A DNA stretch of 5,132 bases, taken from the NCBI GenBank assembly GCA_902766515.1, contig CACXEB010000017.1, positions 1 through 5,132 on the forward strand. The letters are read 5' to 3'. Below, in pieces: positions 1-5,132 of this stretch. How positions within the stretch are numbered: position 1 is the first letter of the stretch; every line of letters starts with the position of its first letter. The translations under genes were made by a program, and so were the position numbers. The notes beneath the pieces were generated by a model. That model was not told the DNA's origin and made no database searches. It worked only from the letters and a program-made list of their open reading frames with translations. This stretch comes from an uncultured Eubacteriales bacterium (lineage in GTDB: Bacteria; Bacillota_A; Clostridia; Christensenellales; Aristaeellaceae).

Positions 1-1
1 G

Positions 2-433
2 ACGCCGCTCCAGCCGTACTTCACCGCGGACTGCTACGCGCAGTACGAGCGCCAGCTCCGCGCGAAAAACAAGCGCGGCGAACATGCGCACTGCGAGGTC
101 CACAGCGTCAAGGCGGAGCTGCTCGGCTGGAACGAGGACAAGTACGAGTACATGCTGGCGGTGTCCATGCGTGCCGTGATCACGGCGTGGAACACGGACG
201 CGGACGGGAAGATCGTCTCCGGGTCGGACAGGAACCGCAAGGAGATGCACTATGCGTGGGTGCTGCGGAAGTCCAAGACAGCCCAGAGCGCCGAGCGCTA
301 CTGCCCGAACTGCGGCGCTTTGCTGGACATCAACCAGATGGTCCGCTGCCCGCACTGCGACGCCCTGCTCGAACAGCCCGGCAGCGGCTGGGCGCTGAGC
401 TCCATCCAGGGCATCTCCCAGACGACGCTGTAA
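2..433 (+). CDS. Tim44-like domain protein with C-terminal zinc ribbon (5' partial)
   Basis: The reading frame is open from the first bases of the window, so the gene begins upstream; 143 residues are visible. The first ~90 residues (starting TPLQPYFTADCYAQ) align well with the middle of the next gene and look like a Tim44-like, NTF2-fold-type domain. The shared pattern includes a PLxPY start, a VKAELLGW strand and a D-x-DGKIVSGSDRNR turn followed by a YAWVLRKS strand. A zinc ribbon follows, with cysteines at visible residues 101, 104, 116 and 119 (CPNC...CPHC), and the tail reads WALSSIQGISQTTL. There is no signal peptide or membrane segment in the visible part. The stop lies 21 bp before the next start, so the two genes are probably co-transcribed. 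The family assignment is from recollection of Clostridia proteins with this domain order; the cellular role is unknown. It could instead be described only as a zinc-ribbon protein. Confidence 0.75.
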   Translation, partial: TPLQPYFTADCYAQYERQLRAKNKRGEHAHCEVHSVKAELLGWNEDKYEYMLAVSMRAVITAWNTDADGKIVSGSDRNRKEMHYAWVLRKSKTAQSAERYCPNCGALLDINQMVRCPHCDALLEQPGSGWALSSIQGISQTTL

Positions 434-454
434 TGATTTGAAAAGGAGTCAACC

Positions 455-1060
455 ATGAGCCTGTTTGTACCTTACCACACCATGGTCGAGGGAGAGGACG
501 CGACCCTGTCCCCGATGTCCCAGTACAGCAGCCGCGATCCCTGGTTCAGCGTGCCATCCATGCAGTCCCGGGTGTCGAATCTCTGCATCCAGCTGATGTT
601 CGGCCTCTGCGACGGCGATATGGAGCCGCTGGAGCCCTATGTCACGCCCGAACTGCTCCGGCATTTTACGGACCAGGCGGAGGCGCTCCGGCGCAGCGGG
701 CAGCAGATGCATGTCGAGCGCCCGTGCGTCCTGCGCTCGGAGATCCTCGGGTTCCGCGCCCTGCCGGGGGAGGACCACGTCCACGTGCGCTGCCAGACCC
801 GGTGCGTCCAGTATGTGACGGACAGCCGCGGGCGGGTGATCTCCGGCGACCGTTCGCGGGAGGAGTTTTCCGCCGCAGTGTGGGTCTTCTCGCGCCCCGT
901 GGATGAAAAGACGGAGCGCAACCAGGACTTCAGGAGCTGGCACTGTCCCGGCTGCGGCGCGGCCTTCAACGTCTATACGTCGGCCAAGTGCCCCTACTGC
1001 GGCAGGCTGGTGCCTGTGAGGCAGTTTAACTGGATTGCAAACGCAATACTGGACGCTTGA
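455..1060 (+). CDS. Tim44-like domain protein with C-terminal zinc ribbon (tandem paralogue)
   Basis: This is a complete 201-residue protein. The ATG at 455 is preceded by AAAAGGAG (441-448) at a 6-nt spacing. Residues ~28-150 form the Tim44/NTF2-like region (DPWFSVPSMQ... EPLEPYVTPELLRHF... LRSEILGFRALPGED... YVTDSRGRVISGD... AVWVFSRP). Residues 163-183 form a zinc ribbon with C164, C167, C179 and C182 (CPGC...CPYC). The C-terminus ends WIANAILDA. It matches the upstream partial protein almost end to end (PLEPYVTPELL versus PLQPYFTADCY; GRVISGDRSREE versus GKIVSGSDRNRKE), so the pair is a diverged tandem duplication. No signal peptide or transmembrane helix is present, so it is probably cytoplasmic or bound to a membrane partner encoded upstream. 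In other proteins the Tim44 fold binds membranes or partner proteins; what this one does is not known. Confidence 0.85.
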   Translation: MSLFVPYHTMVEGEDATLSPMSQYSSRDPWFSVPSMQSRVSNLCIQLMFGLCDGDMEPLEPYVTPELLRHFTDQAEALRRSGQQMHVERPCVLRSEILGFRALPGEDHVHVRCQTRCVQYVTDSRGRVISGDRSREEFSAAVWVFSRPVDEKTERNQDFRSWHCPGCGAAFNVYTSAKCPYCGRLVPVRQFNWIANAILDA

Positions 1061-1067
1061 CGCGTCC
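1051..1067 (+). terminator. possible weak terminator hairpin at the end of the Tim44-like pair
   Basis: GGACGC (1051-1056) pairs perfectly with GCGTCC (1062-1067) around a TTGAC loop that contains the end of the stop codon. It is followed within a few bases by the stronger GGGGGAC/GTCCCCC hairpin of repeat copy A. There is no T-run after either stem, so intrinsic termination is doubtful; the element might act only as a 3' stabilising structure. Confidence 0.25.
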
Positions 1068-1072
1068 CGCAT

Positions 1073-1351
1073 GGGGGACTTGCGTCCCCCCTACGGAACC
1101 CCCCTGCAGATTTGCCTGTCGGGACTACGTCCCTCCCGGGCGGCAAATCTGAAAGGTAGAAATCGCTGACGCGATTTCGTCCTCGCACCGTACATGCCGC
1201 TGCTGCGGATTGTACGCGAGGGTGTGCCCCCTCGCGGCTCCCCCCGGCACGTCCTCTGCGGCACTTCCATCCCATCGCCCTACGGGTTTCGGCCTGCGGC
1301 CTCATCCGCCGGGTGAACCGGCGGACTCCGGGATTCCGTGCCGCAGAGGAC
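1073..1351 (+). repeat. structured dispersed repeat, copy A
   Basis: This non-coding element starts 13 bp after a stop codon and shares 1073-1265 with the copy at 4941-5132, in the same orientation. In order it contains five structures. (1) GGGGGAC (1073-1079) pairs with GTCCCCC (1084-1090) around TTGC. (2) CAGATTTGCC (1107-1116) pairs 10/10 with GGCAAATCTG (1142-1151) and encloses a GGGAC-TAC-GTCCC mini-hairpin (1121-1133). (3) GAAATCGC (1159-1166) pairs with GCGATTTC (1171-1178) around TGAC. (4) A long interrupted stem, 1181-1221, has arms CCTCGC/GCGAGG, GTAC/GTAC and CCGC/GCGG around TGCT. (5) GTGCC (1224-1228) pairs with GGCAC (1246-1250). Positions 1153-1236 are identical to copy B. A perfect 14-bp inverted repeat (1251-1264 with 1338-1351) closes the right part. 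Within it TCCGCCGG (1305-1312) pairs with CCGGCGGA (1318-1325) around GTGAA. The right end is set by this inverted repeat only, since copy B is cut before it. I do not recognise a named RNA or MITE family. Confidence 0.85.
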
Positions 1352-1613
1352 ATTTTGGTATGTCACTGGGCTGCGGGACTGGATGGCGGGGATGGACGAC
1401 GGTTCGGCCTGCGGCCTCCCGCCTCCGGGGACTGTCTGGGACGCCGCTGGGCTGTGGGAATTGAATGGCTGGGGGAATCACGGTTTGGCCTGCGGCCTCC
1501 CGTGATTCGGGGACTGTCTGGGACGCCGCTGGGCTGTGGGAACTGAACGGCCGCGGGAATCACAGTTCGGCCTGCGGCCTCCTGTGATTTGGGGACAGTC
1601 TGGTACGCCGCTG
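1350..1613 (+). repeat. imperfect ~82-bp tandem repeat array with internal hairpins
   Basis: Two units are close copies: 1432-1513 and 1514-1595, both beginning CTGTCTGGGACGCCGCTGGG and ending in GGGGA. A diverged unit precedes them (about 1350-1431) and a truncated start of a fourth follows (1596-1613, CAGTCTGGTACGCCGCTG). Every unit carries the core GGCCTGCGGCC (1406-1416, 1487-1497, 1569-1579). The same core also occurs once at 1291-1301 inside copy A. Around the core the second unit forms GAATCACGG (1475-1483) with CCGTGATTC (1500-1508), and the third forms AATCACAG (1558-1565) with CTGTGATT (1582-1589). The first unit has different arms, GGATGGCGGG (1381-1390) with CCCGCCTCC (1418-1426) and one bulged T. 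The array fills most of the space before the next gene and carries no convincing reading frame. Confidence 0.85.
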
Positions 1614-1657: not shown

Positions 1658-2689
1658 ATGAAACGAGAAAAACACCTGCAGCGGCGGATTGTTTCGATGC
1701 CAATAAACATTCCTGTCATCCTGAGCCGCGAAGCGGGTGAAGGATCCAATCAGCATGAAAAGACAGAAACTCAGGTAACAATCGTAACACAGAACGGGTT
1801 GCAGCCATATACCTTCGATAAGCTGATGTATACAATAAAACGCGCGATAATGATCTGTCTTGTTCTCTGTCTTGTTATGCCAAACACGGTATTACATGCG
1901 TTCGCAGAGAATGGGTTCGGCAAAATGGTCTACGATGCGAAGGAATATTTTCATAGAACCACCGGCTTCTCATATTCTTTTATTGATCATCAGTTCGACC
2001 ATCATGTCGAATGGTGGGAAGACAGAGAATTATGGAAGGTGGTTTTTACTTATCATGATATTTATAACAATCATTTGGCGACAGCGTGCCAGGGGCATAT
2101 TTACAGTGGCAAAGACGGCCGTATGATAGAACCATTGAAGTATGTTGTTTTATTTGACAGCGACTGTATTCTTCTGGAAAATGAAGACGATGAAATCTTT
2201 CCGTTATTATTGGAACGCTATATGACCGAAGCAAACCATTGGTACAGAACAGAGCGGATCAAAGAACAAAAAGGGTATAATGAAAGGTATGGCCGGATTT
2301 GGCAGTTCTGGCCTCCTGAAATCAAGGCGGCGTTTTATCAGGAATATGGCCATCCATCGGGCTTCTTCAATGATGTTGAAATACTGTCGGTTGAGAAATC
2401 CGTTTTACCATACGAAGCAGTACTGAAATTGATTCAGGATTATGTCAATGCCAATGAACTTGCGATTGATATAATCGAATACTGTATCGATTCTTCTGTC
2501 ATCATGCTTCCATGCTCAGAAATCAATGATAATGATCCAACATGGCTGATCAGGTTATACTTGTTGGACGGAGAAGAATACAGACAGGAATACATGATCG
2601 CTGTTTGCGCAGTTCACGGACAGATTGAGTGGATTGAAAAGAAAAACAACACGTTCATTGATCAATATTCCTCACAGCACACAACATAA
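1658..2689 (+). CDS. probable secreted protein of unknown function with two PepSY-like repeats
   Basis: I do not recognise a named family. From ATG 1658 the protein has 343 residues. Residues 57-83 (MYTIKRA, then IMICLVLCLVMP, then NTVLHAFA before ENG) look like a complete signal peptide with an AFA cleavage site, but they follow 56 hydrophilic residues. Start at 1826 would give a normal signal peptide and 287 residues, but has no ribosome site. Start 1658 is kept because of AGGAG at 1647. The putative mature part holds two alike segments. One covers about residues 90-158 (AKEYFHRTTGF...LWKVVFTYHD...GHIYSGKDGRMIE) and the other about 254-327 (AVLKLIQDYV...TWLIRLYLLD...VCAVHGQIEWIE). Both fit a helix, then W-x-V/I strand, then G-x-I strand as in PepSY-type domains. 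Between them is a W-x-x-x-E-I-K-A-A-F stretch. Base composition is clearly AT-richer than all neighbouring genes, suggesting transfer or relaxed selection. The promoter was not identified. A terminator begins at the stop codon. Confidence 0.7.
   Translation: MKREKHLQRRIVSMPINIPVILSREAGEGSNQHEKTETQVTIVTQNGLQPYTFDKLMYTIKRAIMICLVLCLVMPNTVLHAFAENGFGKMVYDAKEYFHRTTGFSYSFIDHQFDHHVEWWEDRELWKVVFTYHDIYNNHLATACQGHIYSGKDGRMIEPLKYVVLFDSDCILLENEDDEIFPLLLERYMTEANHWYRTERIKEQKGYNERYGRIWQFWPPEIKAAFYQEYGHPSGFFNDVEILSVEKSVLPYEAVLKLIQDYVNANELAIDIIEYCIDSSVIMLPCSEINDNDPTWLIRLYLLDGEEYRQEYMIAVCAVHGQIEWIEKKNNTFIDQYSSQHTT
1713..1747 (+). repeat. REP-like short palindrome
   Basis: ATCCT (1718-1722) pairs with AGGAT (1741-1745), and inside it CCGC (1726-1729) pairs with GCGG (1733-1736) around GAA. 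Read on the minus strand it begins GGATCCTTCACCCGC and ends CAGGATGACAGG. This resembles the widespread short palindromic repeats of the form GATCCTTCG...CAGGATGACA found in many unrelated bacterial genomes (recollection). It lies inside the open 5' part of the following gene, between the two candidate starts at 1658 and 1826. Confidence 0.65.
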
Positions 2690-4903: not shown

Positions 4904-4940
4904 TGTCCCTGTTCCGTCTGCGACTCCACAGGGAGCGAAA

Positions 4941-5132
4941 GGGGGACTGGCGTCCCCCCTTCGGGACCCCCCACGGCGTTTCCTGTCGGGCCTACGACCC
5001 TCCCGGGCGGAAACACCGCAAGGTAGAAATCGCTGACGCGATTTCGTCCTCGCACCGTACATGCCGCTGCTGCGGATTGTACGCGAGGGTGTGCCCCCTC
5101 GCGCTCCCCTCGGCACGTCCTCTGCGGCACTC
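4941..5132 (+). repeat. structured dispersed repeat, copy B (3' end beyond window)
   Basis: This is the second copy of the element at 1073-1351, in the same orientation, beginning 38 bp after the permease stop. GGGGGAC (4941-4947) pairs with GTCCCCC (4952-4958) around TGGC. CGGCGTTTCC (4974-4983) pairs with GGAAACACCG (5009-5018) at 9 of 10 positions, although several bases differ from the stem in copy A. Positions 5020-5103 match 1153-1236 without a difference, including the hairpin GAAATCGC/GCGATTTC (5026-5045) and the interrupted CCTCGC...GCGAGG stem (5048-5088). GTGCC (5091-5095) pairs with GGCAC (5112-5116). The window ends inside GTCCTCTGCGGCAC-TC, the left arm of the 14-bp inverted repeat seen in copy A, so the right end is not visible. 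The 37 bp before it hold TCCCTG/CAGGGA (4906-4911 with 4929-4934) and no gene. Confidence 0.85.

Follow-up and report, generated by a model that had tools for sequence, protein, structure and literature searches.

Two copies of a hairpin-rich repeat in an uncultured Eubacteriales bacterium belong to a MITE family with a covarying interior

A 5,132-nucleotide stretch of DNA from an uncultured Eubacteriales bacterium (the window) contains two copies, A and B, of a repeat with a 10-bp stem, P2, in which several pairs differ between the copies on both sides and still pair. Functional RNAs are usually proved by covariation, and the question raised by this locus is whether the stem records a folded RNA, a folded DNA, or the way in which such a repeat mutates. 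We read both copies base by base. The arm coordinates of the first-pass annotation were right in both copies, and its three two-sided changes (A1108-T1150/G4975-C5017, T1111-A1147/G4978-C5014, and G1114-C1144/T4981-A5011) and the replacement of A1110-T1148 by a C4977·A5015 mismatch were confirmed. The genes near the repeats encode a Tim44-domain protein, a ferredoxin, a GntR regulator, and an ABC ATPase. Among the best 80 of 173 matches to the ABC ATPase, the relatives were Clostridia MAGs with titles mostly naming the ruminant gut; the relative at locus L001 is 75% identical to the window protein. Of two adjacent frames at window 1-1060, one carries a Tim44-like domain; the other carries a zinc ribbon and matches Pfam Tim44 below the cut-off, and the two may be paralogues.

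The repeat carries at least six hairpins beyond P2, namely a P0-like hairpin, P1, P2b, P3, P4, P5, and P6 (Table 1). P2b, which was overlooked earlier, lies within the supposed loop of P2 (1117-1141) and covaries across copies. The P0-like hairpin of copy A overlaps the stop codon of the upstream ORF (1058-1060), and a terminal repeat was not recognisable there. A single C·C mismatch is present in P4 of each of the two window copies. For P2b of copy B, the automatic hairpin pick took a pairing different from the register of the other copies.

Table 1. Hairpins of the two repeat copies in the window.
Feature	Copy	Position	Strand	Description
P0-like left-end hairpin	A	1051..1067	+	GGACGC-TTGA-CGCGTCC; same position as P0 of relatives
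P1 hairpin	A	1073..1090	+	GGGGGAC-TTGC-GTCCCCC; then GGAACCCCCC at 1095-1104
P2	A	1107..1151	+	10-bp stem 1107-1116/1142-1151 and internal loop; arms CAGATTTGCC / GGCAAATCTG
P2b	A	1121..1133	+	5-bp hairpin inside P2, GGGAC-TAC-GTCCC, TAC triloop
P3 hairpin	A	1159..1178	+	GAAATCGC-TGAC-GCGATTTC
P4 hairpin	A	1185..1203	+	7-nt loop TACATGC, then CTGCGGATT
P5 hairpin	A	1215..1236	+	CGCGAGGG-TGTGCC-CCCTCGCG, then C run
P6 long hairpin	A	1251..1351	+	14-bp stem 1251-1264/1338-1351, nested hairpins
P1 hairpin	B	4938..4961	+	
P2	B	4974..5018	+	stem 4974-4983/5009-5018, C4977·A5015 mismatch; arms CGGCGTTTCC / GGAAACACCG
P2b	B	4988-5000	+	one C·A mismatch when paired as in the other copies
P3 hairpin	B	5026..5045	+	identical to P3 of copy A
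P4 hairpin	B	5052..5070	+	
P5 hairpin	B	5082..5103	+	
P6 5' arm	B	5117..5130	+	remainder past the window end

Three 82-bp tandem units follow copy A (window 1345-1613). Units 1426-1507 and 1508-1589 are 91% identical, and the hairpin GAATCACGG..CCGTGATTC enclosed in the former becomes GAATCACAG..CTGTGATTT in the latter through one two-sided change and one G·T. At window 1714-1747, TGTCATCCTGAGCCGCGAAGCGGGTGAAGGATCC resembles a palindromic repeat of many unrelated metagenome genomes.

We collected at least 209 distinct core sequences, fragments included, from 32 genomes and the window. The collection holds the better matches among those listed and is not a census: 223 matches were reduced to 209 distinct sequences, a few of them possibly overlapping pieces of one copy, and 167 of these, from 25 genomes and the window, have ungapped P2 arms. 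By blastn, the repeat was found in 11 of the 12 locus genomes and in 29 of 150 relatives of genome G004 (G004 itself counted), with up to 46 matches per genome when fragments are counted. A covariance model gave matches in at least 31 of the 396 genomes sampled within the order, G004 counted; this value is a lower bound because eight candidates were scored per genome and the filters were strict. Outside the order, none of the 390 other genomes of the class gave a match (1 of 391 being G004 itself). Phages gave no match to the repeat by blastn, viral contigs none to exact strict patterns for the P2 loop and P3, and genome contigs none to the exact strict pattern for the P2 loop.

The first-pass annotation recognised no described family in the repeat, and our searches agree. 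Rfam gave no match to the repeat: at E ≤ 5, the only match in the window was sub-threshold and outside the repeats, and at the gathering score the only match in 18 loci was a SAM riboswitch elsewhere in L052. Among the papers listed in searches of the open-licence literature, we recognised none on this element.

The relatives share one plan, from which some copies lack some parts. The left part consists of P0 at the left end, P1 (GGGGGAC..GTCCCCC type) with a C run, P2 around P2b and CCCGGGC, and CAAGGTA. The right part consists of P3, TCCTCGC, P4 (loop TACATGC/TACACGC), CTGCGGATT, P5 with a second C run, a long P6 in some genomes, and the right terminal repeat. Further structured modules (e.g., CGCTGAAAAT..ATTTTCCGGGCG) are nested in P2b, P3, P5, or P6 at L183, L189, L160, L193, L196, L252, and L255, as though insertion favoured the tips of hairpins. 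At L200:945-1054, P2 and P2b are merged into a single long hairpin and the conserved internal loop is lost. Copies of the family often lie at contig ends.

Pairing in P2 was tallied over nine ungapped pairs per copy in the 167 copies (1503 cells), which contain 44 distinct arm pairs. Of these cells, 1476 (98.2%) are paired, compared with 36-66% in slid controls and at most 1216 paired cells in 1000 whole-arm shuffles. Alignment A1 covers P2, P2b, and P4 in 40 of 44 copies chosen from 123 (L200, L215, L275, and L282 were left out). Its cells are paired in 94.7% of cases, compared with 74.2% in shuffles, and the 43 unpaired cells among 818 include 14 in one P4 pair. Two-sided changes occur in 17 of the 21 pairs of A1, with 164 two-sided against 2 one-sided cells. 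The covariation score of A1 was 0.508; shuffles scored 0.149 and slid controls 0.06-0.11. The number of further pair types was less clear-cut (36 against 31.7, reached by 24 of 500 shuffles). The A1 shuffles ignore kinship, whereas the slid controls account for kinship but favour a structure that was read from the sequence. Alignment A2, in which 24 matches were fitted to the covariance model with distant genomes included, contains 118 two-sided and 0 one-sided cells, with 24 of 442 cells unpaired. Because the copies are related, the cell counts are not independent. These results indicate that P2 is a real and strongly covarying stem.

Conservation outside the stems is uneven. Some unpaired columns are nearly constant (T at column 48, 0% deviation; CGGA at columns 142-145, 0-1.6%; TCC at columns 116-118, 0.5-8.6%), and unpaired motifs recur in distant genomes; arm columns 38, 43, and 44 are equally constant, and deviation reaches 10-23% in other unpaired columns. 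A helix between the P2 3' arm and TGCGGATT, read from the copies rather than formally counted, was considered and dropped because TGCGGATT is constant while the P2 arm changes.

Copies A and B are 93.5% identical outside P2. Their arms differ at 7 of 20 bases and the region between the arms at 2 of 25, and the claim that the loop is conserved above the stem holds to this extent. Over the family the order is reversed: in 393 pairs of copies with 85-97% identity, 15.1% of the P2 loop with P2b differs, against 7.5% of the P2 arms. Among 112 copies examined, the arm type of A also occurs in six outside the window (L113, L114, L142, L143, L160, and L193), and a type one T>C change from the B arm occurs in four (L164, L165, L184, and L204). 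The three two-sided changes are not independent events that arose since A and B split, because both arm types (that of B minus one mutation) stand in other genomes; the P2 difference between A and B is one between two arm types of the family. L182 and L184 form a similar pair, with 93.2% identity outside P2 and five two-sided changes. The arm sequences suggest that exchange between copies may have produced the A/B and L182/L184 differences. We keep block exchange for these two pairs only and reject it as a general mode of P2 change, because over the 393 pairs the P2 arms change more slowly than P2b, P1 (10.8%), and P5 (11.1%); they are faster only than P4, TCCTCGC, and CTGCGGATT (3.2-5.4%). 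In the closest bin (≥95% identity outside P2), there were four changed cells, all one-sided. New mutations therefore do break pairs and two-sided changes come with distance, a pattern compatible with selection as well as with later correction.

In the relatives, terminal inverted repeats of approximately 14 bp (GTNACTNTTCAGNC type) bound the copies. We used the terminal-repeat consensus to search 284 sequences (283 loci and the window) for inward pairs 250-800 bp apart with ≤1 mismatch, the core not being required. An exact 8-bp target-site duplication (TSD) was found at 20 of the 33 distinct pairs (e.g., L104, L106, L278, and L280) and a duplication with ≤1 mismatch at 23; the other 10 pairs have no TSD even at one mismatch. 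Exact duplications of other lengths were found at none of the 33 pairs for 7 bp and 9-12 bp, at two for 4 bp, and at one each for 5 and 6 bp. As controls, shifted flanks gave 0, 0, 0, 0, and 1 of 33, and swapped flanks gave 0 of 1056. The 23 TSD-bounded copies are 276-749 bp long. They are too short for a transposase, but a mechanical ORF of ≥90 aa overlaps 19 of them, often entering from the flank. Neither terminal repeats nor a TSD was found at window copies A and B, the latter of which runs off the window. Since the relatives show terminal-repeat pairs with exact 8-bp TSDs and are short with many copies, the two window copies belong to a family of miniature inverted-repeat elements (MITEs), i.e., short non-autonomous DNA transposons. 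The family is unusual among MITEs in its structured, covarying hairpin interior.

An autonomous transposase with matching ends was not found among the IS66, IS4, IS256, and ISL3 families in eight genomes. IS66 transposases were present in none of the eight, which are incomplete MAGs, and IS66 was rejected as the source. At 21 loci with IS4-, IS256-, and ISL3-type transposases in the eight genomes, there was no terminal-repeat pair at ≤1 mismatch. Weak two-mismatch end pairs at L341/L343 and L344 have no 8-bp TSD, and a near match at L340 lies outside the GGCTCTTC ends of that ISL3 element. G002 and G007 contain exact 14-mer end pairs, but only at element-sized spacing or 19 kb apart. Integron attC ends have GTTRRRY/RYYYAAC core sites; the repeat ends (GTTACTA...) do not match GTTRRRY, and an attC site was rejected. 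Transposition of the single-strand IS200/IS605 type is not known to leave a TSD, and an IS200/IS605 or REP element was rejected on the 8-bp TSDs at the relatives' copies.

Distant copies have the same core with other ends, like AGTGTCGAAAAAGTGGC / TTTTTCGACAGACTG, and no 8-bp TSD was seen at copies of this kind. Direct repeats of a terminator-like hairpin, 17-39 nt long, surround elements with this second terminus (raw counts, without a control). Three of 19 copies (L311, L317, and L318) have the same locus-specific terminator-like hairpin on both sides. L296, L014, L058, and L288 are likewise hairpin-flanked; in a set of 197 copies, they belong to the 10 that have any direct repeat of ≥13 nt.

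We counted G·U and A·C cells in the stems with a rule that is blind to both alike. P2 contains G·U in 2 of 1503 cells (0.13%), A·C in 13, and other mismatches in 14; P1, P2b, P3, and P5 together contain G·U in 6 of 2467 cells, A·C in 14, and other mismatches in 20. The P2b count covers segments shorter than 30 nt. In 90 terminator-like hairpins of the same DNA, found with an equally blind rule, G·U occurs in 19 of 874 cells (2.2%) and A·C in 6, and in 16 tRNAs of the same DNA G·U occurs in 25 of 351 cells (7.1%). Only the terminator control is neutral, because the program used for tRNAs allows G·U but excludes A·C. Fisher p values for G·U in the repeat stems against the controls were 4e-7, 2e-7, and 1e-16, over copies that are related. 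G·U is thus not tolerated above A·C in the plus-strand stems, opposite to the terminator-like hairpins.

Our main reading, to which we give a probability of approximately 0.58, is a mobile MITE with a hairpin cassette that is kept Watson-Crick-perfect at the DNA level, template switching writing the arms. The element would be moved by a transposase supplied in trans, probably a DDE enzyme. The hairpins would form in DNA, as cruciforms or while single-stranded during replication, and template switching would copy one arm onto the other. Lineages that retain hairpins and motifs would go on transposing, and selection for mobility would keep the motifs. With arm-to-arm switching, new arms would appear as Watson-Crick pairs and there would be no lasting G·U intermediates. 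In PMC8794818, template switching during replication is the origin given for compensatory changes of several bases and for inverted loops. Loops inverted on the same inner arms were found in P1 (L261 and L279 have GGA where 19 copies have TCC) and P5 (AACA in L246 against TGTT in 6 copies), with one-to-one inversions of AGC against GCT in P1 and AGCG against CGCT in P5; these are raw counts without a chance control.

More tentatively, the repeat may be an order-wide cassette in which the folded DNA itself is selected, with a core common to two or more transposon types (the one flanked by 8-bp duplications and the one lying between duplicated terminator hairpins), hairpins written by template switching, and near-perfect covariation without RNA.

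Mutation alone could have a similar result if template switching keeps the arms of any close inverted repeat perfect and the hairpins have no function. The Watson-Crick-only changes of A1 and A2, the inverted loops, and the extra hairpin modules nested at loop tips agree with this explanation. It gives no reason, however, for the near-constant unpaired columns (48, 142-145, and 116-118) and the motifs in distant genomes, which template switching alone leaves unexplained; recent amplification could account for part of the motif constancy. We consider a purely mutational origin unlikely.

We regard it as improbable that the folded molecule is the minus strand, as RNA or as a protein-recognised single-stranded DNA. 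The fold of copy A compared with shuffles is stable for minus-strand DNA (z = -7.8). Read on the minus strand, a plus-strand A·C is a G·U or G·T, and the pooled distinct cases (21 A·C and 8 G·U, p = 0.02) are thus weak evidence for minus-strand folding. These cases are not independent, the distinct P2 arm pairs counted by hand give 7 A·C against 2 G·U (p = 0.18), P3 runs in the opposite direction (4 G·U and 0 A·C), and the minus-strand wobble rate would still be <1%. GNA and GNNA form unusually stable DNA loops, and TNC/TNNC is their complement, which places GNA/GNNA on the minus strand. Apical TNC/TNNC loops are common among the distinct hairpins of P2b (46 of 79) and P1 (40 of 67), but account for only 32 of 85 in P3 and 6 of 113 in P5; those closed by C-G number 42 in P2b, 24 in P1, 28 in P3, and 2 in P5. 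The loop rule holds for P1 and P2b, in part for P3, and not for P5, and was rejected as a general rule.

A structured non-coding RNA spread by transposition, in which a plus-strand transcript would fold into P1-P6 for a cellular or transposon function under RNA selection, is quite improbable. The strong covariation in A1 and A2, the stable RNA fold of copy A against shuffles (z = -6.9), the constancy of some unpaired motifs, and the occurrence across the order are all expected of such an RNA. G·U is nearly absent, however, and below A·C in P2 (2 against 13), opposite to the terminators (19 against 6), and the Rfam searches gave no match. A plus-strand RNA reading of these sequences is therefore possible and not favoured. 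In regards to the proposed selection on a folded RNA or single-stranded DNA, the covarying stem stands and RNA is the less likely half. Chance or an alignment artefact, conceivable while only the two window copies were at hand, is refuted by the collected copies (P2 pairing in 1476 of 1503 cells; two-sided against one-sided ratios of 164:2 and 118:0).

Near-perfect covariation, scarce G·U, and transposon ends together make the family a cautionary example as well as a test system. With several species that each carry tens of copies in a genome, the upkeep of hairpins by selection and by template switching becomes directly measurable. Repeat annotators gain a family that is frequent at contig ends.

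The family resembles bacterial MITEs in its short length, many copies, terminal inverted repeats, and, in the relatives, a fixed 8-bp TSD; it differs in that its interior is a row of covarying hairpins and its core also occurs under other ends. The bcr1 and similar repeats of the Bacillus cereus group are interspersed and MITE-like with a predicted structure. They belong to another lineage, and we set them apart by description and not by sequence. Like the REP and REPIN sequences moved by TnpA-REP (PMC8266576, PMC3116915), the repeat is a high-copy extragenic palindrome with hairpin-shaped DNA; unlike them, it measures 276-749 bp and has several hairpins and 8-bp TSDs. The hairpins maintained by template switching in PMC8794818 share the multi-base compensatory changes and inverted loops. 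Those hairpins are described for RNA genes, e.g., rRNA, whereas the present hairpins are in mobile DNA and contain scarcely any G·U.
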